From: Sialis fuliginosa
Lineage: Eukaryota; Arthropoda; Insecta; Megaloptera; Sialidae
Direction of reading: 5' to 3'
NCBI GenBank assembly: GCA_961205875.1
Contig: OY540813.1
Coordinates: 14,913,001 to 14,977,000, forward strand
DNA: 64,000 nt
In this document: positions 26,297-50,560 of the stretch, in pieces
Numbering within the stretch: the stretch's first letter is position 1
How the letters are laid out: every line of letters begins with the position of its first letter
Translations under genes and position numbers: made by a program
The notes under the pieces: model-generated
Database searches by the model: none
Told to the model about the DNA's origin: nothing
What the model saw: only the letters and a program-made list of their open reading frames with translations

Positions 26297-27653
26297 ACAT
26301 AAACGTTTGTCTTTAATGTCCGGTATTATAAGGGCCGATTTTTTTCTCTAAAACTTCTGCATCTATGTAGGTTTTTTCCCACCTGCACCGAATCGAATAA
26401 AATCAGTTACAACCTTTCATCTGTGAAAATTAGCTTTACATTTTTTATGCTAATATATTTAAGAGTTTAGGGATGGGTGGTTAAAAGTCATTATATTATA
26501 AAATTGATTAAATAAGCTATCTATTGGCTTTTCATTTATTGCTCTATGATTATTAGTTCCGGAGATATAAGCTTTCAAAGTGTGACATATTTTCGTTACA
26601 TTCGTGTTTCCGAGCTTATTCCCTAATATTACCGGGGAAGACGTAGTTCTACTTAAAAAAAAAGAAATTGATTAGAAAAAAAATCAAAACTGGAAAATTT
26701 GAATTTAAAACAAAAATTTCTTATTTATGTGCGGCCCTCGGAAAATTTTAGCTCGTCAATGCGGCCCGCGGTGCAATTTGGGTTGGCCAGGCGTTAATTA
26801 AACAAAGATTATACGAAACTCCATTCAAAATCATGAAATGATGAACCTGTGAGCAAAGATATCGTTAAAATTAAATCAATAAAAACATTGCGGACGTAAT
26901 CCCTATACTCACAAGGTTAAATTTATTGATTTTATTTTGGCAATTTTTGCTTCGAATTGAACATATCATATTTTAGTTATGTATTTACAACATTTGAGTT
27001 TACTCGTGATATTTTTCAATTTTCCGATAAATACCCTAATATAAGTCATTTCAAATATTATTTTTCAAACGAAAGAACCCTAAAATTTATTATAAATATT
27101 CAATAAGTACCATTTCTTTTTTTAAATAAGAAGGAAATGCAACACAAATTCAACTCAAGACTGTTTTGCTGTGCTCAATCAAACCAGAGCTTTTGGTGAC
27201 CTACTTACGCTACCTTTCCATGATTCTATGACGTCATTGCCATAGCGCTTCTTGGAACAATAACATTACCTATATTATTTAAATATTAAACAAACACGTA
27301 AAAAATTTAAAGTAATATTATTATTTATTTGAATAATACATATTATAAATAATTTAAACAATATAAACAATCCTATAGAGTATTATTTATAAATAGATAC
27401 TATCATTTGATTCAAACGAATTTTTGTCAATGAATGTGAAGATTTGATTCATGTGTATACCTATACTTTATATACCTGATGTTTTAGAATTAGCGTAAAT
27501 TTCTATAGTAATAAGTTGATTTTTTTACACAATGTATTTGCGTATTGCTATTGTTGTATTCAATAGTAGAAATTTTGTAATTTTTTGATTTTAGAATATT
27601 CTATCGATAAAAATTAAATTTTAGAATAATTTGGGCTACATACACCGGTTGTT
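26297..27653. other. Gene-free region with one CRE palindrome
   Basis: A GC-rich scrap at 26730-26790 (gcggccctcgg ... gcggcccgcgg) looks like a decayed repeat. The perfect palindrome TGACGTCA lies at 27229-27236 within tctATGACGTCATtgc. No exon is recognised. Confidence 0.5.
27229..27236. promoter_or_regulatory. CRE palindrome TGACGTCA
   Basis: Perfect cAMP-response-element core, flanked as ATGACGTCATTGC. The same 13-base context recurs at 46951-46963. The site is the first of nine in the window. Function is inferred from motif only. Confidence 0.5.
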
Positions 27654-27998
27654 CAGGGCGGATTTACCCATAAGTTAAATAAACAGTTGTTTAGGGCCCC
27701 AGCTTAGTGCCCCCCCCCCCCCCTCTTCCTCCGATTCATCGAAACCTTGCGAATTTTGTAACTAAATTCGACCTAAGTTTTTAATTTAAAAAATAATAAT
27801 AATAATATGCTAATAAGTTAATTAAAGTGAAAGATATCAATTTTAATAATAAATCCAATAGTTCAATAAAAAAATGATGTAGAATTATTTAATTATCCTA
27901 TTTTAGGATTTGCTTAGTTTAGGTTGAATTATTTCTGAGGTTAAGGGCCCTTCCTATGACTACTGCTTAGGATCCTTACAAATATAAATCCGGCTCTG
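27654..27998. mobile_element. hAT-like MITE, 345 bp
   Basis: Left CAGGGCGGATTTA and reverse-complemented right CAGAGCCGGATTTA are matching ends. Flanks cggttgtt (27646-27653) and tggttgtt (27999-28006) agree at 7 of 8. A poly-C run near the left end and gggccc motifs near both ends resemble the 14126 element. Confidence 0.88.
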
Positions 27999-28419
27999 TG
28001 GTTGTTCAAAATTAAACGTTACGAATTATTATTTCAACAATTAAGCTTATACTTACAGAAAAACGTAAAAAAACAAAAAAGTAACTCAATTTAGAGGGGG
28101 TAATATGACAGTGGTTCGAAAAAAAACAAATTATACTGTAAAGTAGTTTATGCAATGTTACAGTCAATATAGATTTTCAATTTGATCTTAAAACATGTTC
28201 TATTATAATTCAATTTGAATCACAAAAGTAGTATTTGCAGTTTACTCTTAATAATATTAAATTTTGTAAAACCACGTAAAAGTCTTTAATTTTTATAAAA
28301 TAGAAGAAAATTATTACACGTTTTTGAGAAAACATTACAATCTGTACGTAAAAATAAAAAAATATGTTAAATATTTTAAAATTTAGAAAAGTTAAATTTA
28401 TTAAAGAGCTATTGCAGTA

Positions 28420-28510
28420 TGACGTCATTACTGGCACGTTCTGTCCTATTTCATGCGAATATGGGTGAAGCTTTGCGTCATTCAGTTTTCCAAAGCTCGA
28501 ACAGTAAGTT
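28420..28510 (+). promoter_or_regulatory. CRE palindrome followed by candidate first exon and donor
   Basis: TGACGTCA at 28420-28427 is followed by a locally GC-richer stretch, a TTCAGTTT initiator-like site near 28483, and a consensus donor AACA|GTAAGTTT near 28504. This is the layout of a short non-coding first exon on the plus strand, but no transcript evidence can be seen. Confidence 0.35.
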
Positions 28511-28519
28511 TGGTCCATG

Positions 28520-29435
28520 ACCTATATATACAGCTACGAAAAAGAGATGTTTATTGGAACCAGTAGGAAAGACAAAGATAACACCAGGTTTTACGATTAC
28601 TGAATATGTTTGCTGTTTTTAGTTCATGTAATACATAGACAAAGAAAATCTTATGTCTTATATATATATATATATAATATAAATATTACAATGTAGGTAA
28701 AATGCAGCATTTTGTAAATATATGTAATTATGTGTGTTGATTATCTTAATAAATAAATATATGAACCCACCATAGGGATTAAAAAACATCTCCAGTTTGG
28801 CGCCATAGTACTCGGGAACTAATTAATAATAATTATTAATAATATTAATTTCAGATTATTTTTAAATGTTTGTTATACAGTTTAAGTATATAGTTTTATG
28901 TCTTAAAATTTTGAAAAATCGTTTATATCCTGTAAATAACCGGAAAGTCAGTTGAAAATTATTATAAAAAAAAATATGTCAAAAAAAGATAGGTAAGCAA
29001 GCATCTTGCGTTTATTAAAATTATTTTTATTAGAACACAAAATAATTACAATTTAATGATTATTTTGCAAACACCTGACAATACCTTCTCGAACTTTAGG
29101 TATCAAAGGAAATATTTTTTGTAATTAAAGTACATAATTTTTAATATCATATTGATTTTGAATGTATAAATTTGAATATAGCTTAAGTATTTAAAATATA
29201 TTTTTATCTTAGGTATTATTTTTAAAACTGGTTATTTTAATTTTAATGAATAGCATATTTTCTTTTATTTATTAAATGTACTTACAGCTATTTGCCATCC
29301 TTTGTCTAAATTATAACTTAGTCCTGTGAATATTTAGGAATATATATGTACTATTATGTACATTTGTAAATATATGTGTATACAGTCGATGAAAAATATT
29401 ATAAAATTATATAACTGTTAATTAAGGCTTTTGTC
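28520..29435. other. Gene-free AT-rich stretch
   Basis: It holds a short (TA)n tract near 28657-28675 and AT-rich sequence. No exon, RNA gene or element end is recognised. Confidence 0.5.
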
Positions 29436-30000
29436 CCCCGAATCCTTGTCAGACACATAACTCATGAACCACTGAACTGATATTAATTAAACTTGGTTTA
29501 TTGGTTGGGTCTGGATAGCTCTATTCAAAAATCATCAAAATCGTGTGTAAGGTGGAGGGGCGACATCTCAAAATAGTTATCTTTTCAAGATATCTCAAGA
29601 ACAACACATGTTACGTGAAAATTTTATAGAATTTTTTTACTGTTTTTGTAGTAAAATATTCTCTTATGAATAAAAATCGTCATTTATTTCTTAAAATCGC
29701 TATTTACTTTGACATATTAAATGTCATTTTGAGGTTTTAAATATCGTTTTGACGTTTGCAGTACAGAAAAAATTAGATTTAGTTTGAAAGTGTTATAAAA
29801 TTAAAAATATACGAAAAAATAATCAGGCGTATATAATTTCGAATCATAATATTTTTATAATAAAAATGAAATGGTTAAACAATAGTAGATCATCTGAATA
29901 TTGTATCGGTGTTTTTAAAATTGTTTGGTAATTATCTACCTTTGGTGAATTTAACACGAAGCAGCAAGTAGCATTTACTTGACAAATGTTTTTTCTATAA
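29436..30000 (-). repeat. Dispersed repeat family R1, inverted copy
   Basis: Read on the minus strand this matches the R1 unit at 1640-2520: a tcctcgtg-like/aaatgctac block, the tgacatttaaa block, cgtaacatgtgttgttcttgag, a ggtggaggggcgacatct block, ccactgaac and caaggattcggggg. It lacks both the 20-bp array and the (ACGG)n tract of copy 1. Confidence 0.65.
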
Positions 30001-30199
30001 AAAATAAAAAAAACTAAATAATAACAAAACTGATCATGGTAGATTTGAAATTATTAAATACTTTTGTCGAGTGGTGACTTATTGATAACTATTACGCAGT
30101 TACCTGAAGCTGATGTCCCTGGTAATTTGCTAGTCGTGCCATCCTATACTTACGTCACTATAACCACAACAATGTACATGAATATAAATGCGGGTTAAT

Positions 30200-31007
30200 C
30201 ATAGACATAGATAATGGACCACGCATCTGACTCGAGAGCAGAGTCGTGTCAAAAGAAAGAGATGGAAACAGGTTTGGAATATACTTGTCCTTTTTTTAAA
30301 CAGGAGTGTAATTATTTAATTCTTGGCCCCGAACATTAAAAATATTCATAGATATATGTGTATAAAGAGGTTAAAAAACAAAAAATAATTAACGTTATAA
30401 AAAAAATTTATTTAAAAAAAAATTATTTATTTCTAAATAATATAAGTTTCGAATTTTTTGACCCGATTTTAATATCTTGTTCTTTCTTTTTCGTAGCTTC
30501 GTAATGTAACCTAATATCAAAAAAAATATTTAAAATTTTGTTAAGTAAATCTTGTAAGTGCTGTTTGTAAGTGCAATCCACCTCATCATTATGTTGCAAC
30601 CACATGGGAATAGATTTAAAACTATTTTTTATTAATATATATTTAATATTTTTGGTAGCAAAAATGTTATTTTCCCAGAATATCCGTTCATAATTTTGCA
30701 AATTTCTATCAGATCAATTGATGTTTTTTTTTTTTAATTTCCTCGATGAAATATGAACCATTATAGTATATTTATTGTTTATATTATTTACTTTTCTAAT
30801 AAAAACTTATTGCACAAAAATCACAAGATAGATATACAAAAATATATCTGACAGAAATACTACCCTGAACTATAGTAAGCTACCAATCAGGATCTTAGAA
30901 AAAGAGATAGATATATTCCAAACTACACTGCATCTTTCTCTCACTTTTTGAACAGATGTTACATCATTGTGTTAATACAGAAGCACTGTCCATTCTCTAT
31001 GTCTATG
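30200..31007 (-). mobile_element. CATAGACATAGA-family transposon, 808 bp, with coding remnant
   Basis: Left CATAGACATAGATAATGGAC and reverse-complemented right CATAGACATAGAGAATGGAC are near-perfect inverted repeats. The exact 8-bp duplication GGGTTAAT is at 30192-30199 and 31008-31015. The related MITE at 7143-7628 shares the ends and duplication length. A 92-codon frame lies inside on the minus strand. Eight-base duplications fit hAT and P superfamilies; the coding remnant leans towards P/THAP-type, tentatively. Confidence 0.88.
30423..30701 (-). pseudogene. Transposase C-terminal fragment (possibly P/THAP9-like)
   Basis: The 92-codon frame lies wholly within the 30200-31007 transposon. After a Met it reads ...IPMWLQHNDEVDCTYKQH, then LQDLLNKILNIFFDIRLHYE and a lysine-rich end. 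An LxxLLxxILxxFFxIRLH helix followed by a basic tail is reminiscent of the C-terminal end of P-element/THAP9-type transposases. That comparison is from memory of the family pattern, not an alignment. The catalytic core is absent, so it cannot be active. Confidence 0.4.
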
Positions 31008-31139
31008 GGGTTAATGTTAAAAATAAATTCCATTCTAATAGATGCATACGGGGAAAATAATAAAATTCATGGCAAAAACGAGAAGCAACGAGCACCAGAG
31101 ATATATGTACGTACATGCTTCAATGAAATTATAATTAGT

Positions 31140-31400
31140 GAATCGGGTGCTCTGTTTCTGTTGCGCGACCGCCTCGTGCATAGGCAACCCGGTGCACGAA
31201 GGTCTTTGACCCACACAGGTTTTCCTTCTTCACCAGCCTGACCCAGTTTCGGCCTGGTTGGCACACTTCGCAACAAGTATTGACGTGTCGCCCCGCGTCC
31301 CTCTAGAGCTACCCCTCACGCGCGAAATGACGTCAGAAGTGACGACGGCGGCGACGGCGTGCACCCCTTGAATGCAGGATTCACTGTGTGTGTGTGTGTG
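31140..31400. promoter_or_regulatory. GC-rich island with CRE palindrome
   Basis: The stretch from about 31145 to 31370 is far more GC-rich than its surroundings and contains CpGs (gcgcgaccgcc, acgacggcggcgacggcg). TGACGTCA lies at 31328-31335 with a second half-site gtgacgac just after, then a (TG)n tract at 31386-31410. Frames on both strands are open because of composition. It looks like a promoter or first exon; direction is not determined. Confidence 0.45.
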
Positions 31401-31461
31401 TATGTGTGTTTTGGTTTTGGGTCAAACGTTGATAAAATTGATGTTTTCAGAATAAGATACT

Positions 31462-31893
31462 GGCACCAGTTATGGCCGCTATAAGAGCAAGGTTTACTGT
31501 TTTTGTAATTGACAGGCTTCATTTCTTCATTCTCATGAACTCATGTTATTAATAAAACAAGTAACTCTTTATGTAATCAATTTAATTACCAAAGTCCGTA
31601 AATATAGTTTGTTTTTTAAATTATAGACTTTTATTTTGTTTATGTTTTGTCTTCAGTAATAATGGATAAAGTAAAACCAGTAATGAGTACCCAATGATGG
31701 ACACATGCTAATGATTACAAAATGATAAGTACTCCGACACAAAAGATGAAAGAATCGTCATATTTGAAAGATTGTGAAGCAGTTGCTATGATAAAATAAT
31801 AATAAATAAATAAATTATACTAATAATTGCTAATTAGTTTAAATGTCCACCATTTTCACACCTATTGGCCAATTGTCATCAAATTACGCTGTA
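31462..31893 (+). mobile_element. GGCACCAGT-family element, copy A (truncated)
   Basis: It starts GGCACCAGTTATGGCCGC and continues with taagagcaaggtttactg, and reaches the gtccaccattttcacacc and gtcatcaaattacgctgtaa blocks shared with copies at 39239-39773, 54245-54665 and 56781-57068. The right end is missing because the R1 repeat copy begins at about 31905. Confidence 0.8.
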
Positions 31894-31904
31894 ACAAAAA
31901 AAAA

Positions 31905-32400
31905 AACAAAACACGAATTTTTAAAATAAATTGAGATAAATCTTTGTAAGGGAATATTTTACAACAAACGTTGTTGACCCATATTATAGGAAATTTAATG
32001 CTCTACAAAAAATATTCTATAAAATTTTCACGTAACATGTGTCGTTCTTGAGATATTTAAAAAATATATATTTTGGGGTGTCACCCCTCCCCTTTACATA
32101 CGATTTTGATGATTTTGAAATGGGACCGTCCTCAAGTCAAACTCAACCATCCGATCAAGTTTCAATAATATCGGTTTAGTGGTTCATGAGTTGTGTGTGT
32201 GACAAGGATTCAGGGGACAGACGGACACACGGACGGACGGACAGACAGACAGACACGGAACGAAAAGTGTTTGCGTTGACGTGAAACAGATAAATCAATT
32301 TAAAATTTTGAAATCGGAGAACATTTTTTTTGTCTCAATCTGAAACGATCACAAAGCTTCTCATATTTTCGATATGCGAGGAAGCAAAAATAATTACCTA
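31905..32400 (+). repeat. Dispersed repeat family R1, copy 2
   Basis: From aaaacacgaattttta to gatatgcgaggaagcaaa this matches the right half of copy 1 (1985-2510) closely. It has a shorter (ACGG)n/(ACAG)n tract at 32217-32256. It abuts and interrupts the GGCACCAGT copy A. Confidence 0.8.
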
Positions 32401-32700
32401 TATTTTAATTTGATGCACTCGATTTTAATTATTTAAATGAGTCAGTTAACTATTCTATAACTCCATATTTATATTTTTAATTTCAGGCAGTTTTAAAAAA
32501 CTCAGACAATACGAATTCGTTATTTTAACAATGAAGCGTTGAGGATGTTTTTTTCTATAGCAATCAAATGGTCGAGTGAATTAATTAAGGTTTAAATAAT
32601 TGTGAAGACAAAAGATTTTTATGATTTATAGTTTTATAGAACATTGAAAATTTTAGTATTTATTATAAGAGGAGTCGAAAGAAACTTATATTCGAAAGGT

Positions 32701-33055
32701 ACTGTACCATAAGTGTGCACAAAAAAAATCATGTGTGTATGTTGCCGTTAAGGCAGGTAAAATAAAGTTAACATACACACATGATTTCCACTCTCGATGT
32801 TTGCTTATTTCCATTCACATCGTTCAACAGCATAGCAATACTCCTAGCGCCACCAAGCGGCAAAAATAAATAGTTTTGGATTTCTGTCAAACGTGGATAA
32901 TGCGTTTAGAGATTTTATTCGCGATCAATTGCAGTGTTTTTATTTGGAAATGTTTGTTGTAAAAACAGTTTAGGTTAGGTTAGGTTAGGTACTATGCCAC
33001 AGATGTGCACAAAAAAAATCATGAGTGTATATGTTGCCGTTAAGGCAGGTAAAAT
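32701..33055. repeat. Direct repeat pair with 18-bp hairpin
   Basis: A roughly 62-bp unit (core gtgcacaaaaaaaatcatg, then tgttgccgttaaggcagg, then taaaata) occurs at 32703-32765 and again at 32993-33054, about 290 bp apart. In the first copy AAATCATGTGTGTATGTT (32726-32743) faces its perfect reverse complement at 32770-32787 across a 26-base loop. Both copies follow an AGGTACT string. The family is not known to me. Confidence 0.75.
32970..32989 (+). repeat. Interstitial telomere repeat (TTAGG)4
   Basis: Four perfect TTAGG units stand directly before the second copy of the 62-bp direct repeat. TTAGG is the ancestral telomere unit of insects and is lost in Diptera. Confidence 0.85.
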
Positions 33056-33519
33056 ATTGGTTGAATTTCGACCATAGGCGATACTAGTAGATATTAAATT
33101 GCTACAAACCGTAGAGAGATTTCGGTTTAGTTTGATATGGTCGCGAAAAAATATAATAACGAATATTATTGTCATGTTCTTTAAGATGACCTACCTATAT
33201 ATACATAAAATACAGAAATATACATAACGAATATACCTAATATAAAAATAGATAGATTGAATAACAATTAAAAAATAATAGCACGTTTGTTTAGTCAAAA
33301 ATAAATTAAAACCGATATGCATAAGATAGGTATCACTTATCGAATAAAAATACATGTAGGTTGTAATGCGCCTCCACCATACATTATTGTGTTTATTTTT
33401 AACTAGGTGTTATGACTCGATTTTATCCGGGACATAAAAAATATGAATTAGTTACTCATGGCCACCGTCTTTTGTTTTTATTTTATAAATTATGTTTCAA
33501 CGATTTTGTTTTAATTTTT

Positions 33520-34211
33520 ACTTCCATGTTCTGAAAGAAATGGAAGTATTGTAATACCATCGAAAAATCGTGTCCGAGAAAATGACAAATTCTGATTGTA
33601 CTAACTTCAAAACGTAAAGAAAAGTTAATTTCCGCATGACGGCTGTGCGTGTGTCTGTGTCAGGATGTAGATTTTTTTTTCGTTCACGATAACTACTGTA
33701 AAAATGCACCGATCAGAATTATTTTTGGGAAAAATGTTTGTCTCAGTGAGTACTCCAGACCTTTAGATTTTGGTGCTAATCGGATTAGGGGTTTTGGAAA
33801 TATTCGAAATTTTGTAACTTTTTTCGTTTAAAAAGTGAACATTGCGTGTATTATCTCACTAATTTTGATAAGATTTGGTACATTTGCAGTTCAATTAAAT
33901 CTAAGGGACATTTATTATTTGTACGTGCCCAAACAGCCATTAAAGGGGTAAGAAACACACTTAAAATTTGAATTTTGCTTGGAAACAAATGCAACTAAAT
34001 TAAGATTGTTAAATTAGTTGTTCTACGAATGTGTATTATGTTTTTGACATTATATATTTATATACAAATGGCAATAACTGCTGTAACCGTCGTAATATGT
34101 TTTTTATGTATTACGAAATTTATATTCATAGTAGTAGATTATATTAATAAAATATTTTTCAAAAAATTGATATTTAAAAATTATTTAAAAAGATAGAAAG
34201 AACATGGAAGT
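33520..34211. mobile_element. Element bounded by ACTTCCATGTT repeats
   Basis: ACTTCCATGTT at 33520-33530 and AACATGGAAGT at 34201-34211 are perfect 11-bp inverted repeats about 690 bp apart. Just inside the left end, gaaatggaagt forms a local hairpin with the terminus. The same start phrase (cacttccatgttct) recurs near 56331. No target duplication was seen. Confidence 0.5.
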
Positions 34212-35830
34212 CATGTATGGTTCTCCATACCGATATTACTATATTTAACCATATATTAATCTAACTAGTAGATTAATATTAAGCACCTTGACGACGTATT
34301 TCGGAGGTCCATAGCTGTAAACCTTCTCGGGAAAATACCAAATATTATTTAAAAAACCTTATTCAAATCGGTTCAGTGGTTCTCTTGCTAGAAACGAACA
34401 TAGATAGATAGTTACAAAACAGAAATATTCCTTCATATTTTATATGTATTGATGAAATACAGGATGATTTATAAAGAATATAAAAGACACTAACAGTGGA
34501 TAGAGAACTTTATTTTAAGCAAAAAATTTCATATAAGCATGTGTTCGGAACTTCTTCTTGAAGAAGATTAGTTTTTATTTAATATCTGGTGAAGTTATTG
34601 TGATACTGTTATATTTGATAGTTTAATATTAATAAGTGTATCGATTTCTATTTTGTCACGCAGAATCAGATCTTTAAAACAAATACAAGTTTTCGTTTGA
34701 AAAAATTAAAGTTACCATTAAGAGGTGATCCATAAAACACGTCATGCAAAATTCACGTATTTTTGATCCCTATTACGCCGCATCACATTTTTTCAACTTC
34801 CTACCTAATACATTACAAAACCTGGACCCCCCAAATCAAAATCGATCATTTAAAACAATGCCTTTTATTTATATCGCGACTGAAAAATAAAATTTCAGTT
34901 TAAAAAATTAGGAATAAATTTGATATGGGTATTTCAAATATCGCGTCACGTCATGTGTGTTTGAACCTACTCTTCTCTCCCCGTCAAATATCATCACGCT
35001 AGGCAATTGCCCTCCTTTCCCCTTTTTACGTTTTTTTTATGGACGACCCCTAAGAACATTCAATAATAAATAATAGCATGGTATTTCCCCCTCTAAACAA
35101 AAGTTTGTTTGTAATCACCTTAATTTTCGAAATAAAAATTCATAACGTTTTAACTCGAACAGTCGGGATAACAGCAAAAAACATGGCAAATATAAATATT
35201 ACCTACTCAGGAACATGGTCTATATAAAAAAGGCCTATATAAAAAATATGCACATCATAATATATTAGGTACTATGCAAAATATTAAATACCGGGTAGAC
35301 AATAACTTTTTATTATTGTTTAATTTACTTCAATAGTCATTATTAAAATTGTTTTTTGTCGATCGATTTTCTTTGTCTCCTTTTTGAATAATTACTACAT
35401 ATTAGATTAAACGTGCCAATTAGTTTCTAATGAAGAAAGTTTATCCTATAATTATTTTATTAAATAATTATTTACCTATATAAGTAAGTATAGGTAACTG
35501 ATATGTGTTAGTTATACAATATACACGTGTATTTGAAATTATTTATAGATTAAACAAGAAGTTATAATATTTTGATGAAGTTTTAAAACTTATTATTGAT
35601 TATATTTTAAAATATTTATTATTATTATTATTGGAATACAAATAGTACATTTGATTTAAACTAATTAATAATAAAAAAACACGCTTTTGACCTATTAAAC
35701 ATAAACAAAAAACTTCAATGCAAAATATAAAATTTCATCCGCATAATTGCATCTTCACCCTCAAATATGTGCGTCTTTGTTTTACGTATTGGTAGAGCAT
35801 TATTGTTTCTGTCACGCACGCATATAAACT
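34212..35830. other. Gene-free AT-rich stretch with repeat scraps
   Basis: Around 34360-34385 aatcggttcagtggttct is the same phrase found in family R1 near the accgatat/ccactgaac block. Otherwise only AT-rich sequence is seen; no exon is recognised. Confidence 0.5.
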
Positions 35831-35849
35831 ATAGAGAGACAATCAATGT

Positions 35850-36055
35850 ACTGACGTCATAGTCTCGTGGACCAATCGCATGTGAGCTCCATTCAATGGC
35901 TGTGGATGCTAGGTTGCCACGTTTATCAGGATTCATCCCAATGTTTAGGCAGTCCCGCGTTGCACGCCAGATTGTCTGGTTGCCTATGCGGAAAGCTCTC
36001 AGATTGTAATGTGTCACATGTTCATTGTTAGTTTCGTGTTCAGTCCTTTCCAACT
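35850..36055. promoter_or_regulatory. GC-richer island with CRE and CCAAT motifs
   Basis: TGACGTCA at 35852-35859 is followed within 20 bp by ACCAATCG, an NF-Y type CCAAT box, and at about 36040 by TTCAGTCC, which fits the arthropod initiator TCAGT. A 74-codon minus-strand frame across the island has no recognisable domain. The order CRE, CCAAT, initiator suggests a plus-strand promoter; this is inference. Confidence 0.4.
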
Positions 36056-36059
36056 TAAT

Positions 36060-37330
36060 AAATATTATTTTTTATATATTATTTATGTATTTGTTTGATA
36101 AAATATATTTGTAATTTTATAATTGGCGCATTTAATTTTGTGTAATAAAATGTAATAACTGTGTTATTTTATTATTTATTAGTTTTAGTTAAAATTCCCT
36201 TTTTATATTAATTTCTTATTATTATTTGTTAATATTAAATAATTAATTTAAAAAAAGTTTTTTTTTTACTTTAAAACAGTTCAGCTAAAAATCAAAATCG
36301 CTGATATGTTATTGTATAGTATAAATAATTACTCATTTTATTATTAAATTTTTCATATTGCCTTTTGTTTGTACTGTTTTCTTATTTTTTGTTTACAGCG
36401 AGATAATCAGATATTATTAGATAAAGTACTTTTCTAAAAATATATATTTTCGAGAGTATTGAACATTTCTATGACGTCTGCTTAGAGGTAAGATAATTAT
36501 TTATTTTACTATTATTAAATATTATTTTAAGATGTATACAAAAAGGTAATTTATCTGTTGTTAATATAAGTTTTTAACTGTTCAAAAGACAAAAAACTAC
36601 AACTTCACCAAAAAAAGAAAAGTAAAAATTTCAAACAAAAAGTGTGATTTTTCAACAAACAAAGAAAGATATTTTTTGTTAAATTGTATTGTATATCAGA
36701 TTGTTCTCTGAACGAATAATAAGATAAAATGCATACACTATTGATATTTGAATACCAATAAAAAATATTTTAAAAAGTAGTTTGTAAATAGTTTTAAAAA
36801 TCGGAAAATAATGTAATAATGTAGAAGAGAGAGAGAGTTCATGAAAGAAACTATAGTTAATTAATTAATAATTAACTATAGAATCAAAACTACAAACATC
36901 ACATTTCTAAAATAACTAAAGTAACAGTTTTTCCCTTCATTTTCAATTTTTTAGACATGTAATAAAATCCTACGTTACAATGTCGTATTTACAAGTATGT
37001 ATTCAATTTTAGTTATTATAATATTACTACTATTTTTATAAGAGGGTCCTTATTTTTACTTAATTTTTAATATGGCCCTCCCACCCCCTACATATTTTTT
37101 GACTAGTAAAGTTAAAATTTGAACAAAAAAATCTTTGTTTTAATGTCTTCAGAATTTTAATATTAAATAATGCAACCCTATGCCCCCCTCTACTCCAAAA
37201 ATTAATCATTAAAACAAATCATTAAGACAATTTCAGCGAGAAAAGGTTTTTTATGTAAAAAATTAAGGTGGGCCGCATTTTAGGGTCTAACGTGCTGCAT
37301 GTGGCCCGCGGGAGGCTTGTTTGCCACCTC
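36060..37330. other. Gene-free AT-rich stretch ending in a hAT-like terminus
   Basis: A perfect palindrome-type hairpin CTATAGTTAATTA ... TAATTAACTATAG lies at about 36851-36881. At 37295-37330 the sequence gtggcccgcgggaggcttg then tttgccacctctg looks like the terminus of a hAT-like repeat (reverse complement CAGAGGTGGCAAA). Its other end was not found. Confidence 0.45.
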
Positions 37331-37339
37331 TGCTTTACA

Positions 37340-37885: not shown

Positions 37886-37893
37886 GCTTTACA

Positions 37894-39238: not shown

Positions 39239-39773
39239 GGCACCAGTCTTGGATATGACCCCAGTAATGGGCTATTTTTTAATTAAATGTACTGAATTAG
39301 AAATATTTGTTGATATTTGATTACTACCATTTCTGAATATTAATCTATATACATTTAACTGTCTTACAGCGTAATTTGATGACAATCGGCCAATAGGTAT
39401 CAAAATAGTGGACATTTAAACAAATTATTAGTATAATATCATCGTAGTACTTATCATTTTGTAATCATTAGCAAGTGTCCATCACTGCGTGCTCATTACT
39501 GGTTTTACTTTATCCATTATTGGAGAAAAAACATAAACAAAATAAAAGGTCAATTTAACTGGCTGAATTTGTTATCAATAAGGCCAAAAAAAAAAGAAAG
39601 GCTATAATATAATATAATATAATTAAAAAAAAAAAACAAATTATATTGTAGAATTTGGTAATTAAATTGATTAAATAAAGAGTTACTTGTTTTATTAGTA
39701 AGATGAGTTCAAGAGAATTACAAAAAGAAGCCTGTCAGTAAACCTTGCTCTTACAGCGGCCATAACTGGTGCC
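39239..39773 (-). mobile_element. GGCACCAGT-family element, copy B (full length, 535 bp)
   Basis: Read on the minus strand from 39773 it starts GGCACCAGTTATGGCCGC and ends (plus-strand left side) GGCACCAGTCTTGGATATG. The termini are therefore 9-bp inverted repeats GGCACCAGT. Blocks for gtccac(t)attttg, gccgattgtcatcaaatta and gtaagac are shared with the other copies. No clear target duplication was seen. Confidence 0.85.
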
Positions 39774-42700
39774 AGTATCTTATGTTGTGTAGTATTGAAA
39801 TTTCTAAATTAACTAAATTAATAGAAATATAAATAACTAAAACGAACGTGTCCATTAGTCATATAACAAAATGGTGTTGCTGTTATAATCTGATGAAATA
39901 TCCAATTTCTATACCATTAATTAAGAAACAAAAAAAAAAATGATATCAGTGTAATTGTTTTTAATTGAACTAATATAAACTCAATAAGAACTTGACAACA
40001 CAAACAGTTGAAATAAAAAATAGACACTAATAAATGTATCGGACATGATGATGATTTTGTTATATAAAGAACACGTGGTGCTGGACACGTGGTGGAGCCG
40101 ACGGTGGCGTGGGCGATCGCGGCCTACGTACGCCGCGTGCTCCGCCAGCTGATGCGTGGGCGACAATACGCGAGAGATACCGCTTCCTCAGAATCTACTC
40201 GCAACGAAGAATTTTTTGATTGCTTCTATTTTAATTAAATTCGTGAACCAATTGAGGATGGTGTAATTTATGTTAATGTTGTCCACTATTAATCGGAATC
40301 TATAAGTAATACGAATTAGATTGAAAATACCGGTTGTTTTAGTATATTTACTGATGTTAACATATTATAAAATATGTATGTAACTATTCAGTGGCGGATC
40401 CAGAAAAAAAATGATGATATGAGTTTAAAATTTTTTGTTAAATGCGAGTCGAGTCTCGCGTACAAGTGTCCCGATTATTTTATTTTGAATTGAACCTGTG
40501 AACACCAGCAATGATACTAGATAACACAAATTTTACAGATTTAAAAATTGTCCAGTAATCAGAAGATTTGAGCTAGAAAAAAATGACAGAGTACATTTTT
40601 TTTCCAAAAAATTGGTAGATTTTGATGTATAGAACATGGCGACAACTTTTACCTCCCTTGGAAGGAGGGTGCACAACTTTTTAGGGGCTTGCAAAGCTGT
40701 CTAACAGAAGATATTTGGGAATAACACTGGGGCTGTCAGTTTTAGGAAAAAAAAATAATTTAGCGACGTCGAGTTAGGTAGCCACGCCGCGCCGTTTGAC
40801 CGCTGTGTTTAATATGTCTTTATTGAATTTCAAAATGAAATTTTAAGTTATAATAGAGAAAAGAGTGCCCTAAATAATACTTTGTACCTAATGTCGAAAT
40901 CTCGAAAAATGTTTCTGAGTATTACAAAAATTTAAGTAAAATTATTAATGTTTTTCGACAACCACAAAGAAGACCTTCCACGCCGAATAAAATAAAATCC
41001 AGCTAGGGGTCCATTAAACATTTAATGCCCTAAGGTTTGAGAGAAGATTAGAACTTTAGATAAATTATTTTTACTATCCTATCCTTCAAATGAAATAACT
41101 AAAAAAAATATGTTTATTTGATTTCATGTTTTATGTAATAAAGGTATTTAAAACTATATTTATAAATACCTAGCTGGAAGAACTTTCAAACAATCGATAA
41201 TATAAACTGGTAATATGACTTTACTGATTCAGACAAATAATAATTTTAATTTATAACATAACAAACTAAGTTTGTGAAATAATGAATTCTATTGAATTTT
41301 TTATAATAAATATGTGTAAATAATATATTCATTATTTAATATTACATTTAAGGCAAAAAATGAAATATCATTTCCAATTTGCAAGAGTATTTGTTATAGG
41401 AACTGTACACTGTACATATTGTTTATAAAATTTAATAATATGTAAGAAATTAAATCAGAACTGAAAAATAAAAATAGTTAAATGTGTTAAAATGTAGGCT
41501 TTTTAATGCTTTAAAATCGTTTGTGTTATTTGGGAAACCAAGTTAATATAACAAATATATAAATTTATTAAAATCATATTATATTTTTGGTCTTTTCTAC
41601 CTGTTTGTGAAGGCTCTTTTATTAATTAATATTGAGGCAGTATCTATATTAGGGTGTTTTTTTTATTTTTATTTTTTCGGTCCCGCAGGCCTATGTTTTA
41701 GCTTTGAATCAAAGGTTAATTGTCCCAAAATTTCAGACTCATAGATCAAACCTGTGGGCGGCGCACACCGAGTCTTTTTCCCATTTGATTAACATAGGAA
41801 AAATTATTTTTTTACTTACGCGTGAATATCTCGTTGAAATTTATTTTTTTGAAAATTTCTCAAGGGAATATTTTGTAGAGAATTAAGTGCTCAATTCATA
41901 AATCTAATAAATTTTAAGAAATGTTTGTTTAAAAATTATCATAAAAATTGGATTTTATTTTTTATGATAATGTTTAAACGAACATAATAATATCTTTAAA
42001 AATATTCGATCTAAGAAATGAGCACTTGGGATCTTTTTTGTAAGAAATTTAATTCTCTATGATCTATATGCCACAGATCAGCAATATTTGTTAATATCGC
42101 AGGTCCTATGGGTTAACAATATCATTATAATTACAATCAGTAATCAGTCCTTAATGAATAGTTAATACCGAAAAACGTAAAAAATTATTAACCAAATTAT
42201 TTTTTTATTACATAAAAGTGTTCCGTATAGAAATCGGAAAATAGCAACACTTATTAGAGTAGTGAGAAAATTCTTAAAAATTGGAAATATGTATGCATGT
42301 ATAATGATACAGAGGTAAAAACATTATCAGCACTCACCACATATATATTTTTTCGAAAATTATTTAACTATAGTACATTTCAAACAAATCTATTAAACAT
42401 AACTATTATTTGGTTCTTAACTGCTAAAATGTAATTATTAATTTTTTGTGGAATTTATACTTAATTAATAAAGAAATATTAATATTTCTTTATTAATTAT
42501 TATTTTATATTTTTAGTATAAAAGTATTATTTTAATTTGGCGAAGTGTCATATAAAACATTAATTACTCTCTTCTTCTATAGCTCACCAATTGATTAATA
42601 AATTTTGAAAATGATTGATTCTTGCATTTTCATCGAGAATAAATATAACATATCTATACTAAATGGGTGGAAAATCGATTATAAGATTTGATCCTAACTG

Positions 42701-43060
42701 ATAAAGCAAGTTAATAAAAGTTTTGTAAAAATAAGGAAATATTCTACTTAAAGTATATACTTATGTGTTCAATAAAGTGGATCCTCGAACAAAGTAAATA
42801 TAATAAACATTTTGAAATGACAAGATTAAAATTTCTATAAATGAATTAATATTCTTATAATATCGTTTTTCCTTTCGGTAAATCTACAATATACATAATA
42901 TCGAATTCACTTGCAAGCAACTATATTAAATGAGTAACAATAAGATGTGTTTCTTTTACATCGTATTTCTCATCTCCAATGAAGGAAACAACAATTTCTA
43001 ACGAGTTATATAATTGACCTCTTTCATTTCCTCTCTAAAAAACATGTCAGTTGCAAACAC
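39774..43060. other. Gene-free region with repeat ends
   Basis: A small GC-rich spot at 40075-40170 gives a 61-codon minus frame without domain. CAGTGGCGGATCCAG at 40389 is a typical MITE terminus, but its partner was not found. Around 41905-41990 a hairpin is formed by aaatgtttgtttaaa and tgtttaaacgaacat. No exon is recognised. Confidence 0.45.
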
Positions 43061-43330
43061 AGGGCACTGGCATCAATCCGTCCAAGCAAACGTGAAATGA
43101 TTCCGATCGGGCGTCATTCCCGTGACGTCAGAGCGCGCTAGGGGGTTGAGGGTGGAGCGATCTCTTCGGTGTGGCGGAGGGTACGATTGCAGTGCGATCG
43201 GTACACTGCTCTGACGTCATAGCACCACGGAGTAACGCGCGCGCGGGGTGGCAGCTGAAGAGATTGCTAGCTCGCGGGGTGGAAACGCACACATAAATGT
43301 TATGCGGATGTTGCCAGTTTTATGCGTAAG
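43060..43330 (+). promoter_or_regulatory. CpG-rich island with two CRE palindromes and a donor site
   Basis: This is the strongest GC island of the window (gagcgcgctaggggg, aacgcgcgcgcggggtgg). TGACGTCA occurs at 43123-43130 and 43212-43219. A consensus splice donor GTAAGTGAG starts at 43326. A start-site plus non-coding first exon on the plus strand is the simplest reading; no protein frame is seen. Confidence 0.5.
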
Positions 43331-43658
43331 TGAGATGCGACATTTTTTTCTTAAGGTGACGTAATTCCAATCAAATATAAGAACAGCCGTTTTTGAAAGG
43401 TGTTCTCAATCAGTAATTAATGTAGGTATTGAACTTTAAAGTTTAGCGATGTCGTAGTTGAGTGTTTGGTAAATGTGTAATTAAGATTTATTCAGATCTG
43501 GGAATCATATTCATCTTATTACAATTTTTGATTGTAAATATTAAAAAAAATTGGTCAAAGCATAGACAATATACATAATTGTAAGATTTTATTTTTTATT
43601 TTCGCACCTATTTAATTTTTATAACTAACCAAAATCCATTTTGTGATTGTTTCTAATA

Positions 43659-44236
43659 CAGTCGAACTCGGGTATTACGGCATCAGATGTAACGACAACT
43701 CTGTTATAACGTCAGAATTATTTCTGATAAATTAATATCCCTATATAAATAATGTTATTTTTTTCGGTTACAACGTCAGCCTAACTTGGCTATAACATCA
43801 AAGTTTCAGTGATTTTAAACGATGAAAAAACCTACAAAAACGTTTTTGGTCAGTAAATACAAAACCAAAGAAGATTTCAGACTATTTCTTTTGTATTTTT
43901 TATTATTACCTTAGCCATGTAACAGTATCTGATTGTGAGTATAATGTTGCTTCGTCGTCATTTCCGATTTCAAAATTTAAACTTAAAAATGTCGAATTTT
44001 TAAATAAAATTGTAAAAAAATTAAGTGGTTAATCAATTAAAATTGTTCGATAGTTAATTAACTACCTTTTGTGAATTTATCACGAGGAAGCACTGTGTAT
44101 TTACTCGAAAGATGTTTTTTTATGAGATACAAAAATTACCCCTGGCTGGTTTTTGATTTTTTGCTCGATCTCGGTTACAACGTCACTTGGTTATAACGAC
44201 ATAAAACCTTAATGTCGCTATAACCGAGTTAGACAG
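43659..44236. mobile_element. Tc1/mariner (pogo/Tigger-like) MITE, 578 bp
   Basis: Left CAGTCGAACTCGGGTATTAC and reverse-complemented right CTGTCTAACTCGGTTATAGC are inverted repeats, with cgttataac motifs repeated inside both ends. The element is flanked by TA on both sides (43657-43658 and 44237-44238). Its interior (about 44030-44115) carries a gtgaatttatcacgaggaagc stretch also found in family R1, so the two repeat families share sequence. Confidence 0.85.
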
Positions 44237-44937
44237 TATTTAATTGAGTTTTTTTGTTAGTATTAGTCTAGTGAATATTTTTCTAACAAACAATTGCGTC
44301 AAAGGGTTTTTATTGTTTTTTATGTTTTTGGCACGTGAAAATGATAAAATCACAAAGTGCTTCTAATTCAGCTTTGCGTTTTTAAGAACGAGGTAAAACT
44401 GGTCACTTTTCAATGTTTTAAATATAACTTGAAAACTGATGAAGTTATATTTTAAAATTTATTAATTATATATATTATATTTTTTTAATAAATAACTGAT
44501 ATTAAATATAAAAAAAAACATGACCATGTTACGAAAAGTTATAACGAATTACAATAAATTAATGGCCACTTATAATAATATTGAATACTGAAAATTGAAT
44601 CTCGAACCGACCACTTCTTCTACACGACCTTCTCATCTATATTTGATCGAACCATTAATTTTTTTCTTAATACAATTTTTCCACAAAAAGATTCCTTTCA
44701 TTAACGATAGTTTTTTTAGTAACTATTTAATTTGTATTTTGAATGTTTGGTGAAGTTTTATTGTATATAATACATAAAATATATAATGTATTTTCTTACA
44801 AAGTCGTTAAAATTTATGTAATCGAATAATATGCGAGGAGCATTTGTTTCATTTTGTAATTTAAAATTATATTCAATACTTTAAAATTTAAGATATTCGT
44901 AGCCACTACTCCATTGATGTTTTTAAGGTACATAGTA
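44237..44937. other. Gene-free AT-rich stretch
   Basis: No exon, RNA gene or element end is recognised in this AT-rich interval. Confidence 0.5.
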
Positions 44938-45783
44938 GGGTGTGTCAAAAGAAGCAATATTTTTTATCTTAGCTCTTATTACGAAATAAGTTAGTTTATG
45001 ACCTAAAATAAATCCTTGCTGAAGTATTAGCCTGTAGTTCAATTTTAAGAGGTGCCACAAAGGGGGGTACTGTTTTCCATTTAAATAACATTGAAAAATT
45101 ATTATTCTTTACTACCAAAGTTAGTATTACTAATTTATGATAACTGATAAAAAAAATTAAGGACGTCATTTAGTAGAGAATAAAATTATTTTCTAATAAA
45201 GCCAGTTGTCGATTGGGTCGTTCTTTTTTCGATAGCTCAGTAGTAGGGTTATATATTATTATTAAATTGATATTTATAGAATAGTGAAAATGCTGATTTT
45301 TGTAAAAAAATATTTAAAACCCATATAAGTTTCAACTCATTGGATTGACACTTATACCTCTTTGGACTATTTTTATAGAGAATTAAATTTCCCATAAAAT
45401 TAACATTTAACTTATTTTTATAAAAACAATAGTTTAATGTGAGATACTTTTAGACGTTTTAACCAAAAAATCAGTTAGAATGTCTGTAACTTTTGATGCG
45501 TTGAATTGAGAGTCATGACTTTCAAGACATTTTTGTAGAGAATTTTATCTTCTGCAAAATGATATCCTTAAAAAATTTTCAACAGTTATCATGAGTCAGT
45601 AATACCAACTTTAGTACTAAAGAATCATTTTCCTAAAAATCATTTACCTAAATGGAAAACGGGACCCCCCTTTGCGACACCTTTTAAAATTGAACTATAG
45701 GGTAATCCTTCAGTGAGAATTTATTTTAGGTCATAAACTAACTTATATCGTAACGAGAACAAATGTTCATTTTTTGGACATAG
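44938..45783. mobile_element. Long-TIR MITE, 846 bp
   Basis: The left 200 bp and the reverse complement of the right 190 bp align through TAAGTTAGTTTATGACC, TAAAATAAA, TAGTTCAATTTTAA, GCAAAGGGGGGT, TTTTCCATTTA and ACTAAAGTTGGTATTACT (a few differences in each). The likely boundary is TA on both sides (44936-44937 and 45784-45785). It can fold into a hairpin with arms of about 200 bp. No transposase is encoded. Confidence 0.85.
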
Positions 45784-45789
45784 TACATA

Positions 45790-46930
45790 AGTACATGTAA
45801 ATTTTCTTTTATTGACTTATTTAATGTTTCCTTGTAAGTAACACTGAATAAATAAAATTATTATTAATACTTCAAGTAAAATAAATATTATACATGAAAA
45901 AGAACTTAAAGTACTTTAATTCAAGTACAATGAAATGCAGAAGTGGTCGTCCAGTTTTCATTTAAATTCGCTTCACAAACTTAGTAAGCTCCTCCCATTT
46001 GATTATTATAATAATTAAATCATTTATCCATGTAGCAAACAAAGACAGATATTTTCAAACATATTTGCTAGATAAAAAAGTACTCGTTTATAGTAAGATA
46101 CTCATATATACCTACATATATGTGCGATTAAATTATTATGTAATCTATTGATAATTGTATAGGTAAATTTTGTGGTAATAAATATTTGATATTCCGAATT
46201 TTAGTATTTAAATATATTAAACTTATAAATATATAAAATTAATTAATGAAATAGACGTATATTTGTGTCTTTATTTAAAATGACGTAATTATATAACCTT
46301 AGCTCAAGAAAAAGATAACCGATGATATTTGTCTTAATATTTTCGAATCTGTTGTAAGCGATTCTGATCTTTACAGTGGTAGATGACTTTTGAAGCTCAT
46401 AGTATAATACATAGATATTTAACAATACTTTATGTTAACTTTTACTTTCACTGATAATATGAGTACTTGTTACAGCTCTGATGATGGCAACAATTCATAT
46501 TACCCCTTATTAGCATCCTTTTTGTATAATACATACATAGGGTTTTATATACGAGACTGACCCCAAAACTGTATTTAGTGTTTGCATAACGAGATTTTTT
46601 TTGAGGTGGTACTTATATGAAATAGCAGCTTAATTTAATTTTTTATACAGGACGAGAAGATATTTACAAATACAGACCACCAACAGTCTCGTCTCGAATC
46701 AATTTTAATTGCTCCAGGCTTATATTTGAAAAACAAAACAAGATAGAGAAAAATGTTTCATACAAAATTTAGATATGAGGGCCAAATTTTTAATATCCCA
46801 AACATTAAATATAATTATTGAAGTTAATATTTAAGTATGTGAATAGGTATAAAGCGTTGTTTATACATACATTCTTGTACAGTTTAAAGTAAGAATATCA
46901 ATCCTTATTTTATTATCAAATAAAACCGAA
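45790..46930. other. Gene-free AT-rich stretch
   Basis: No exon or element ends are recognised. The 60-codon minus-strand frame at 46243-46425 has no domain. Confidence 0.5.
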
Positions 46931-46939
46931 CACTGAAAA

Positions 46940-47160
46940 CTGGCACAGCAATGACGTCATTGCGTTCTTTCTCTGCTGTTTCCCTTCTCGAAGTGGGGGA
47001 ACATATTGGTAGTGGGGTAATTCCCCTACTGTGGCTCGACTCGTAACGTGTGCCCTACATTTAATGGTTGCTAAAAATAGCGAGTCCGTGTGCTATTTAT
47101 AGAACGAAGGGGATAAATTCTATACTGGTGGGGGTAGTGGGGCAATAAACCTGCTTATTT
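46940..47160. promoter_or_regulatory. GC-richer island with CRE palindrome
   Basis: TGACGTCA at 46952-46959 sits in ATGACGTCATTGC, the same context as at 27229. It is followed by a C/T-rich stretch and repeated gtagtgggg(ta)a motifs (about 47011 and 47130). No protein frame or element ends are seen. Confidence 0.4.
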
Positions 47161-48810
47161 TGCACATAGGTACCGTCATTTGTATTTGTTTGAGTACGAA
47201 CTTATAATGTTTTTAAATTCCCACGTGTTTTATTTATTGGAGAATTAATGTATGTACTCTTATTTATCAAATTTTGACAGATTATTATTATTGCCCAAAT
47301 AATAACTTATGTATTAAAAAATAAAATGTATATAAGTTGGCTTTATATTACACCCTTCTCTTAATAAAACTAAGCAAAACCTGAAATATATAATTATGTA
47401 TTTAGTACCTATACATTTTAACAATAAAATGTATACTAAACAAAACATTATTTTTGGACAGAGATTCAATGCTAACGATATGTAGACACAATCTTAAATT
47501 ATCCAAGAAGAGTGGAGAATGACAATATTACTAATACTAGAAAGCATTGTATTTATCTTACGGGTAAAATTACCAAACGGCTATCTTAAAATATCCTTCA
47601 CTTTTCTAATAAATTATCAAATGAACTTGATACTTTTGAATTGATATATGTAGAGAAAAGTATAGGAAGTGGGATTAAAATAACAGTTGGTATTCGGCAG
47701 GTGTATATACATATGTATGTAAAAGCTCGGAATGGCAAATATTCGATCGTACATAATAAATGTACCTATATTTATTGTGCAAATAATTATTTTGTATGTG
47801 TACATTACATATATGTATAAATAGCTGTATATTTTACTGTTAATTATGTATTAGATTTACATAGGTGGATGTATAATTAAATTTTTTGTGGGATAATTGA
47901 TCAACAATTTTATCTGTACAGTGACTATCTATTATCTATAATTATGAATGTGTAATGTTCGTTAATTAAAAAATGGTTTTAGAACAAAACTTAATCAAAC
48001 GCTTTGAATTTGGTTTGTATTTAAGGGCAGTAGTAATAAAATAATACTGTGAAGCTAGGGTGTATACTACTCATAATTGCTTTTAGATCGCTGCATAGGG
48101 GGACAGAAATTTTGGTTATTTTCTAAAAATAAATTAAAATGTTTACTAGTTGTATTTTATGTTTATAACTTAAACAAACTTTTAATAATAATTACAATTT
48201 TTCACATTTTTCGCAAGTACGTATGCAAGTTCTTCTCGACGAGATATTGATCTAAAATTTGGTGTATTTATAGATCTTATTCTAGATCTATATAAGTTCA
48301 AGGTGGCGGACGAATTTTTCCATTTATATGTATAAAAAAAACGCAGTTTGGCGTAGCTGCATGAAAAAATATTAAATGATATTGTAATATATATTTTCCA
48401 ATAAGTAACATAATGGGGAAAACTTATGATTTTTCTTCTCGAAAAAAAAAGTGGTAAAAGATTATTTTTGTGACCGATTCTGCGCTGATCTTTTTTAAAT
48501 CATTAATAAATATAACACAACTGTCATTTAAATTTGATAACCTACAGAAACCGGTTGTTTAGGTTTTGGACTAGACCAAATTATTAAGGGTAAGTTAATA
48601 TTCAGTATAGACAAAATAACAATGAAGGATATTTAATACGGTGCTTTAATTAAACAGTTTTGATTTCAAATAACTAGTGCCTTACATATAGATCAATAAA
48701 ATATACATATTTTTACAAGATAATTATAACTAAATGAAAGATAAAGTGAAAACAACGCTATACATCCGAGGTTCGATTATTTCATTAAATATATCATACT
48801 TTTCTGAATG
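47161..48810. other. Gene-free AT-rich stretch
   Basis: AT-rich sequence with short tatgtatgta-type tracts is seen. No exon, RNA gene or element end is recognised. Confidence 0.5.
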
Positions 48811-48814
48811 ACCC

Positions 48815-49005
48815 ATTCATAGATGCAGCAACATTGCACCATGGTAACACAAGAGCCGCTGCTCCAGGCTCAGCGCCTCCCCCTCTATCTCTGTCTACAC
48901 GCAAGGACGCAGACTTCTCCGTTGTTGACCTACATATCCCTACTTTATGTGTGTCACTTCCCCTCACTGACCCCCACTACGCGGGTTATGAGTGAACGTG
49001 TATAG
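48815..49005. promoter_or_regulatory. GC-richer island without CRE
   Basis: About 190 bp of C-rich sequence (ctcagcgcctccccctc, cttcccctcactgaccccc) stands out from the AT-rich surroundings. The 60-codon frame through it begins at an ATG but shows no domain. It may be another distal promoter or non-coding exon; evidence is composition only. Confidence 0.3.
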
Positions 49006-49582
49006 AATGGTTAGGATGTGTTTGTATCGAAATTGGCCTTGTGATTCTACTTCTTTCAAGGATTTATATATATGTACATATGTATGTATGTTTTTGAACA
49101 AAGGAAGAACGGATAAAAAAGTATTTATAAAAATAATGTTAAATATTTGTTTGTAAATTTGTTATCTATATCCAGTTATTTGATATTACTTTTTTACTGT
49201 ATGCAGGCCCCTACTATAAGAGAGCCTCCACCAAATTGCCAATAAAATATTTTTTGTAAAAATAAAAAAATCATCAAAGAAAAACAATTTAAAAATAAAT
49301 TTTAATAGTTCATGACACTTTCAAAAACAAGTCTTTATTTTCAAATCCATTGATCACATTAGCAATAAAAATAATGAAATTTAGCAAAAAATATAATAAT
49401 AGTTAAATGAATCATACAGAAACTAAAAACTTTAAAAAACAAAATCAAGAAAATCGACCCTAACTTTGTGATTTTTAAATTACAGATACAAAAGATCAGC
49501 TATTTTATTAACAGAAATTAAATACATATATTAATTTATGAGCAAGTATTTTTTTTATAAATCTTGACGCTTTCGCGGTGAT

Positions 49583-49726
49583 GTTATCGGTCAACGTTTC
49601 GTCATACATTGCAGTGGACATCTTCAGAGGGCTCTTCTTAAAGTGCAGTAATGTTAATTACACTACACTTTTAGAAAAGCCCTGCAGATATCCAGTGTAA
49701 TGTTTGACGAAACGTTGGCCGATAAC
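49583..49726. repeat. Foldback element, 144 bp
   Basis: GTTATCGG(T)CAACGTTTCGTC on the left is mirrored by GACGAAACGTTGGCCGATAAC on the right. The inner mirror tacattgcagtgga / tccagtgtaatgt and agagggct / agccct continues to a centre near 49654. The whole segment forms an imperfect hairpin with arms of about 65-70 bp. Confidence 0.85.
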
Positions 49727-49769
49727 ACGACCAAATCGACGCGGCTTACACCCAGAAGCAAGATCCAAG

Positions 49770-50330
49770 TATTTTTTTGTTTTCTACAACATCAATCAAG
49801 TATATTGATTTAAAAAAATTAAAATCGAATAGCAGTGGTTTTTAATTGGGGTTCCCCGAAATTATAAAAACAGGAAAAAAAACAATTGTCCGTATTTATA
49901 TTATATTTAAGTAATATAATATAATTTTATTATTTTGCCAAATTTTCGAAGAATTTTTAAATTATTTTAATACGACATATTAAATCGAAAATAATCCGTA
50001 TTTGAATCAGTACTGGTTAGTATTATTATTGTCTTTATAAATATAATGTTTTTCCGGTTTTTTTGTTTTGTAATGTTTTAAAAAAATACATAAAAAATAA
50101 TAGATAAAAATGACCGTTATTTTTAAATTCTATTTATGTTATTGAGTTTGATGTTCCACGGTTTAGACATATGTGTATATGTAATTAAAAAACCCAGACA
50201 AAGAATATATAAAATCTATTAAAACTCTAAATATATATATGTAATATGTCAGGTAAATTTTGGTTCGTTACTTATATGCGAGAGTAAATATGACACAGTT
50301 ATTCGGAATGTAAACAAAACAATACATTCA
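49770..50330. other. Gene-free AT-rich stretch
   Basis: No exon or element end is recognised. Confidence 0.5.
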
Positions 50331-50334
50331 ATGT

Positions 50335-50560
50335 ATGTTTTGCGCATGCTCCGTGTATGCTGACGTCATGGATGTTTCTGCCAGGAGGGGAGAGTGAATG
50401 CTCTGACGTCACGACCTGCGACGCAGCAGTAATGGTGGTGGAGGCGGCGGCGTAAAGTTCCAGCGACCTGAATGCCTCGATAGAACTGTAACTTGCTGCG
50501 CTTTTGTTCTCGTTTGTTGTGGCTGATGTTGCTAATTTCAGATAAGTAGTAATTAATATT
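50335..50560 (+). promoter_or_regulatory. GC-rich island with two CRE palindromes
   Basis: TGACGTCA occurs at 50361-50368 and 50404-50411, 43 bp apart, with an Sp-type or purine-rich gccaggaggggagag between. A GC-rich run gtggtggaggcggcggcg and then a less biased tail follow. The arrangement resembles a CREB/ATF-controlled promoter followed by a 5' UTR. No protein frame is seen. Confidence 0.45.

Follow-up and report, generated by a model that had tools for sequence, protein, structure and literature searches.

The locus

This analysis concerns a group of perfect cAMP response elements (CREs) in the genome of Sialis fuliginosa, and the microRNA and muscle protein genes upstream of which they lie. 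The window, by which we mean the whole stretch of DNA that was analysed, is 64,000 nucleotides long (C5:14913001-14977000, from contig OY540813.1 of a host assembly of 392,097,322 bases in 20 contigs). Nine exact copies of the full CRE, the 8-bp palindrome TGACGTCA, begin at 27229, 28420, 31328, 35852, 43123, 43212, 46952, 50361 and 50404, all within one block of 23.2 kb, and an exact-word count finds no further copy anywhere in the window, just as a sequence-only reading of the window had reported.

miR-210 is a highly conserved microRNA, and its gene lies to the right of the block. The precursor at 59447-59542 on the plus strand scores 69.9 bits against Rfam family RF00679 (gathering score 50, E 2.1e-15), and a primer sequence for honeybee miR-210 (PMC4932443) is matched exactly at 59498-59518, so that a precursor above the Rfam threshold and a conserved mature sequence together identify the gene as mir-210. 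The sites lie upstream of it by 9 to 32 kb, and the gene is missing from the sequence-only reading, which had called the block gene-poor. For protein exons that description stands, as none that is convincing was found at 25.2-64 kb among the open reading frames listed and the top 60 of a codon-usage scan, and coding exons inside the block are accordingly rejected; for the region overall it does not, with mir-210 at 59.45 kb. A second microRNA, mir-969, was not reported within 25-64 kb in a search for which the presence of the mir-969 family in Rfam was not checked.

Further downstream, outside the window and given here in continued window coordinates, is the gene for troponin I, wupA in the fly. 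An ATG exon that reads MADDE lies at 68266 on the same strand as mir-210, and a tblastn search with an insect troponin I sequence finds exons at 70.08, 70.80, 80.27, 80.58 and 82.77 kb, with conserved sequence running from 70.08 to 82.85 kb. Four versions of an exon-6-like sequence lie between them (71.60, 73.28, 75.18 and 76.03 kb). These are conserved exons in the expected order on one strand, and we regard the gene as troponin I. Open frames rich in Pro, Ala and Glu, with a PPAEG repeat, follow at 85.6-88.9 kb and resemble a heavy troponin I extension; the whole troponin I region spans 68.2-88.9 kb (L009-L011).

Seven CRE-bearing loci

Since two islands hold close pairs (43123/43212 and 50361/50404), the nine sites make up seven loci. 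The sequence-only reading had placed six to seven of the sites in GC-rich islands, and an island scan finds seven of the nine there, in five of the window's 27 islands, with 27229 and 28420 outside. No strand is assigned to any of the loci. Locus 1 (palindrome at 27229-27236) and locus 2 (28420-28427) thus have no GC island. Locus 3 is an island of 50% G+C at 31066-31495 with its palindrome at 31328-31335, and its right end enters a dispersed repeat that starts at 31433. The islands of loci 4 and 6, at 35811-36055 and 46911-47155, hold one palindrome each (35852-35859 and 46952-46959), and those of loci 5 and 7 hold two each: 43123-43130 and 43212-43219 in an island of 50% G+C at 42996-43390, and 50361-50368 and 50404-50411 in an island at 50291-50560.

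The bases next to some of the palindromes are also shared or symmetrical. The site at 46952 is the centre of a 16-bp perfect palindrome, GCAATGACGTCATTGC (46948-46963). Genome-wide there are 50 copies of the half-extended word TGACGTCATTGC and 19 of its reversed control, and among the matches listed the full GCAATGACGTCATTGC palindrome, with TGACGTCATTGC on both strands 4 bases apart, occurs only here and at C10:13943468. A second extended word, GCTCTGACGTCA, has three copies in the block (43123 on the minus strand, 43212 and 50404). The flanks in GCAATGACGTCATTGC and GCTCTGACGTCA may reflect a flanking preference of a single bZIP protein, or they may be due to chance.

Site counts against the genome background

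How unusual is such a crowd of CREs in this genome? The sequence-only reading had reckoned with about 0.5 sites per 64 kb, close to the 0.43 that composition predicts, which proves too low a yardstick: the genome contains 16,213 copies of TGACGTCA, 3.8 times the 4,311 copies of the reversed-word control, and its own rate is 2.65 per 64 kb, or 0.96 per 23.2 kb. Against that rate the excess is about 3.4-fold in the window and about 9-fold in the block, where nine sites stand against 0.96 expected (P 8e-7) and seven loci against 0.67 (P 7e-6). None of 100 dinucleotide shuffles of the window gave nine copies of TGACGTCA, the mean being 0.32. Among the window's 8-mers TGACGTCA ranks tenth by over-representation (order-2 expectation 0.43, P 9e-10), and the nine that rank higher are of low complexity or from tandem repeats, apart from ATGACGTC, which overlaps TGACGTCA.

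The crowding was also examined in 264 kb of contiguous sequence that contains the block, from which two sites resembling a repeat family (142164 and 142522, discussed below) were removed and in which pairs less than 450 bp apart were merged for the count of loci; 16 sites and 14 loci then remain. Nine sites fell within some 23.2 kb of the 264 kb in 1 of 10,000 simulations with uniform placement and in 2 of 10,000 with GC-weighted placement, and for seven loci P is 0.005 and 0.006, respectively. In the first 1.0 Mb of contig C1, which is denser in sites, the fullest 23.2 kb holds five loci after pair merging, and one 23.2-kb stretch there contains ten sites, mostly repeat pairs. The block therefore qualifies as a homotypic cluster, in which sites exceed both the local and the genomic background.

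Repeats that carry the palindrome

Repeats account for part of the excess over composition, and many of the genome's copies of TGACGTCA are repeat-borne. Among the first 100 of the 16,213 sites, 52 are in pairs 139 to 180 bp apart, and at least three repeat families, which we call A, B and C, carry the palindrome. These families take 24 of the 32 sites in 20 sampled stretches, which were hand-picked to include pairs and singles, so that the figure is no estimate of the repeat share in the genome. Nine hand-picked pairs (L029-L037) represent family A and are alike across most of the roughly 490 bp fetched. Family B (L038, L044 and L004) and family C (L040 and L042) have a CCAAT box near TGACGTCA. 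One more TGACGTCA, in L041, likewise has a CCAAT box close by, and families B and C and L041 resemble a portable promoter. Inverted family B-like arms with TGACGTCA also occur at L016:8164 and L016:8522, 358 bp apart (142164 and 142522 in continued window coordinates), in a stretch at 140.1-144.2 kb that holds four sites.

Do the block loci belong to such families? The block shares its palindrome with families A to C, of which B and C add a CCAAT box; the families differ in being multi-copy, whereas six of the seven block loci, with eight of the nine sites (locus 2 at 28420 was not included), match only themselves in a search of the genome. The queries were 27110-27275 for locus 1, 31060-31420 for locus 3, stopped ahead of the dispersed repeat, 35780-36060 for locus 4, 42980-43400 for locus 5, 46900-47180 for locus 6 and 50280-50570 for locus 7. 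The six tested loci are not members of the repeat families, because each matches only itself. Nor are the block flanks copies of one repeat, as the sequence-only reading had already noted: the longest site-spanning match between two different block loci is 14 bp, and comparison with 28 other site-bearing loci gives no alignment across the palindrome beyond about 21 bp. The cluster of full CREs at the mir-210/troponin I locus is thus real, locally strong and mostly outside known repeats.

Promoter motifs and candidate first exons

The islands had further been read as a set of promoters with alternative first exons, in part from CCAAT, initiator-like and donor sequences beside the sites. These extras are not clearly above chance, in a test to which nine sites bring little power. 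Two of the nine sites have a CCAAT, where 2.3 to 2.5 would be expected, and four have a TCAGT, for which the expectation is 2.3 to 2.9. Three sites have a GTRAGT donor at most 400 bp to their right, against 1.4 expected, and these three amount to two of the seven loci, two sites sharing one donor; to the left, on the minus strand, donors accompany two of the nine. An NRF1-like word occurs at two of the nine sites but in one island, and no inference is drawn from it. Strand skew, considered as a sign of transcription, was rejected because a minus-strand Ets-like region, named by eye, has the same sign.

In vertebrates full CREs are found near transcription starts, within about 150 bp for a promoter of the vertebrate type, a tendency that fly, sea squirt and worm do not share (PMC1796609). 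Since full CREs in these animals are not concentrated at transcription starts, enhancers are at least as likely as alternative promoters for the islands, and with the extras near chance as well, promoters with alternative first exons are not supported. Two phase-0 exon-like stretches do lie downstream of mir-210, at 60168-60230 and 61434-61499; the latter, a candidate coding exon on the plus strand, reads NYKVELSDADELVKATLHLMNK from the sequence alone. Joined into one peptide, the two candidates at 60.2 and 61.4 kb have no match in Pfam or PDB.

Other neighbours of the block

The upstream neighbour, on the same strand as the genes described above, is a TTC17-like gene with exons at 19757-25136 (plus), found with stretches of human TTC17 in tblastn (best 98 bits) and by the codon-usage scan. 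An extension of TTC17 across the block was considered and rejected, a human C-terminal probe giving strong matches in 264 kb only to the TPR exons at 20.77 and 24.06 kb; beyond 25.1 kb that probe found no part of TTC17, which makes it unlikely that the block is an intron of this gene. The 24.06-kb exon scores 62.0 bits with the C-terminal probe and 55.1 with the middle part, and may be the last TPR block of TTC17. Three TPR blocks are expected in TTC17, and the probes used find two only at this gene and over the following 140 kb, which suggests that one may be missing.

Further to the left are ferritin exons (12955-13454, minus strand; Pfam E 7e-16) and a zinc-finger gene (5163-8340, plus strand), which we take to be ZNF143-like. 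In the window there is no TGACGTCA in or upstream of the ZNF143-like, ferritin or TTC17-like genes. CrebB was tried as a neighbour and gave no convincing match in 264 kb (best 25 bits). A long open frame at L012:2011-7221 belongs to a retroelement, presumably a Bel/Pao-like one.

Discussion

What might a block of this kind do? We tentatively favour, as a possible reading, a spread-out cis-regulatory region upstream of mir-210, made of CREB/ATF-responsive islands that would serve as enhancers or alternative promoters. The sequence-only reading had proposed CREB/ATF elements for a gene starting near 60 kb; the gene exists, in the form of mir-210, and this part has become the leading reading, and the alternative first exons have dropped out of it. 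In outline, seven short patches, mostly GC-rich, would each offer one or two full CRE palindromes, to which CREB/ATF-type bZIP dimers would bind. In neurons or photoreceptors with active cAMP signalling, the bound islands would increase transcription of the mir-210 primary transcript, either by looping as enhancers or by providing alternative starts for a long non-coding host RNA. In this outline binding, activity, target gene and cell type are all predictions.

Two known arrangements invite comparison. Homotypic clusters of transcription factor sites exist in animal enhancers, and as in these the block has many copies of one binding word crowding a non-coding stretch near a gene. Paired CREs are carried by cAMP-inducible promoters such as those of ICER/CREM and NR4A, and at two of the seven block loci perfect CREs likewise stand close together in twos (43123/43212 and 50361/50404). 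The block, a candidate regulatory region, differs from both: it consists of seven separate patches over 23 kb, where a homotypic cluster would be a single enhancer a few hundred bases long, and the paired CREs of ICER/CREM and NR4A are those of promoters.

Support from outside the sequence for control of mir-210 is thin and mixed. Receptors of the Dop1 type raise cAMP. In locust brain a Dop1 agonist increased miR-210-5p by quantitative PCR (PMC5864846). Fly miR-210 is brain-specific and is expressed in sensory organs (PMC6343102), and a Gal4 line at the miR-210 locus labels the optic lobe, antennal lobe, photoreceptors and mushroom bodies (PMC6062148). In the grain aphid miR-210 differs 1.79-fold between winged and wingless forms (PMC5071838), which we do not read as evidence for CREB. 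The parts available to us of the literature on miR-210, insects and CREB yielded no report of CREB acting on mir-210.

The two genes are linked in Drosophila as well (16F): the miR-210 locus falls within the deficiency Df(1)BSC352 (PMC6343102), which removes lnc45605, lnc45606 and mir-969 and one of whose breakpoints is 545 bases 5' of wupA (PMC8011728). The shared deficiency is the evidence for this linkage, and the main text of the wupA paper, so far as it was available to us, makes no mention of mir-210 (PMC8011728). Fly and Sialis fuliginosa are thus alike in the linkage of both genes, and in the fly non-coding genes lie 5' of wupA; they differ in that no CRE array is named for the fly region in the available parts of these papers.

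Several points weigh against a CREB-responsive region at mir-210. Since TGACGTCA is common and often repeat-borne in this genome, a perfect CRE alone is no sign of a CREB target, and a CRE need not mean one. The genome search that gave the self-only matches skips very common words, and its sensitivity on repeats was not checked. The motif and the limits of the block were chosen after the fact, and counted by loci the clustering is less extreme, with P about 0.005. The promoter motifs, as said, do not clearly exceed chance at the sites, and even the closest of the sites is separated from the mir-210 hairpin by 9 kb. In the locust, RNA sequencing disagreed with quantitative PCR on miR-210-5p (PMC5864846), and in the bee brain miR-210 was unchanged by light exposure (PMC4932443).

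How else might the islands have arisen, or what else might they serve? They could be degraded or low-copy insertions with TGACGTCA-bearing ends and no present function. That at least three repeat families carry the palindrome, that 52 of the first 100 sites are paired at the spacing given above, and that family B-like inverted arms occur within the same 264 kb (142164/142522) all suit such an origin, but six of the seven loci match only themselves and the flanks resemble none of the 28 other site-bearing loci beyond the short match noted above, so that we regard decayed insertions as unlikely. Mere chance would be a matter of a genome-frequent word clustering here and being singled out as a known motif. 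The genome rate of TGACGTCA is about six times that predicted from composition, a by-loci P of 0.005 in 264 kb means that some such clusters would arise across 392 Mb, and the ten sites in one stretch of C1 are an example of crowding elsewhere, mostly by repeat pairs. Against this stand the probabilities of nine sites and of seven loci at the genome's own rate, and the peak of five merged loci in the site-denser C1 megabase where the block has seven; chance seems to us quite improbable.

The islands might instead control troponin I, whose coding start is 18 to 41 kb downstream of them, rather than mir-210, or form part of a domain shared by both genes. The troponin I exons that begin at 68.27 kb are on the same strand, and in the fly wupA has regulatory elements upstream of it and is flanked by long non-coding genes (PMC8011728). 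The URE and IRE of the fly gene, however, are at the 5' end of wupA rather than at a distance of tens of kb, and a regulatory role of the fly lnc genes was judged unlikely by the authors (PMC8011728). In Sialis fuliginosa mir-210 sits between the islands and troponin I, and MEF2-like words occur at none of the nine sites against 0.8 to 2.0 expected, a shortfall that says little. Control of troponin I is, in our view, improbable.

The cluster carries a warning for this genome, in which a perfect CRE is often merely part of a repeat. We return to the CREB/ATF-responsive region upstream of mir-210, of which the strongest form, doubtful as we hold it, is that CREB acts directly on mir-210 in insects, through a seven-island CRE array over 23 kb that answers cAMP signalling. 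Mammalian mir-210 is under hypoxia/HIF control. Adult fly miR-210 is not induced by hypoxia and is required for photoreceptor upkeep (PMC6343102). If the direct-target proposal is true, mir-210 would respond to dopamine, learning, photoperiod or morph cues by a route unlike that of mammals, and the CRE array at mir-210 would be one testable answer to what switches miR-210 on in insects.

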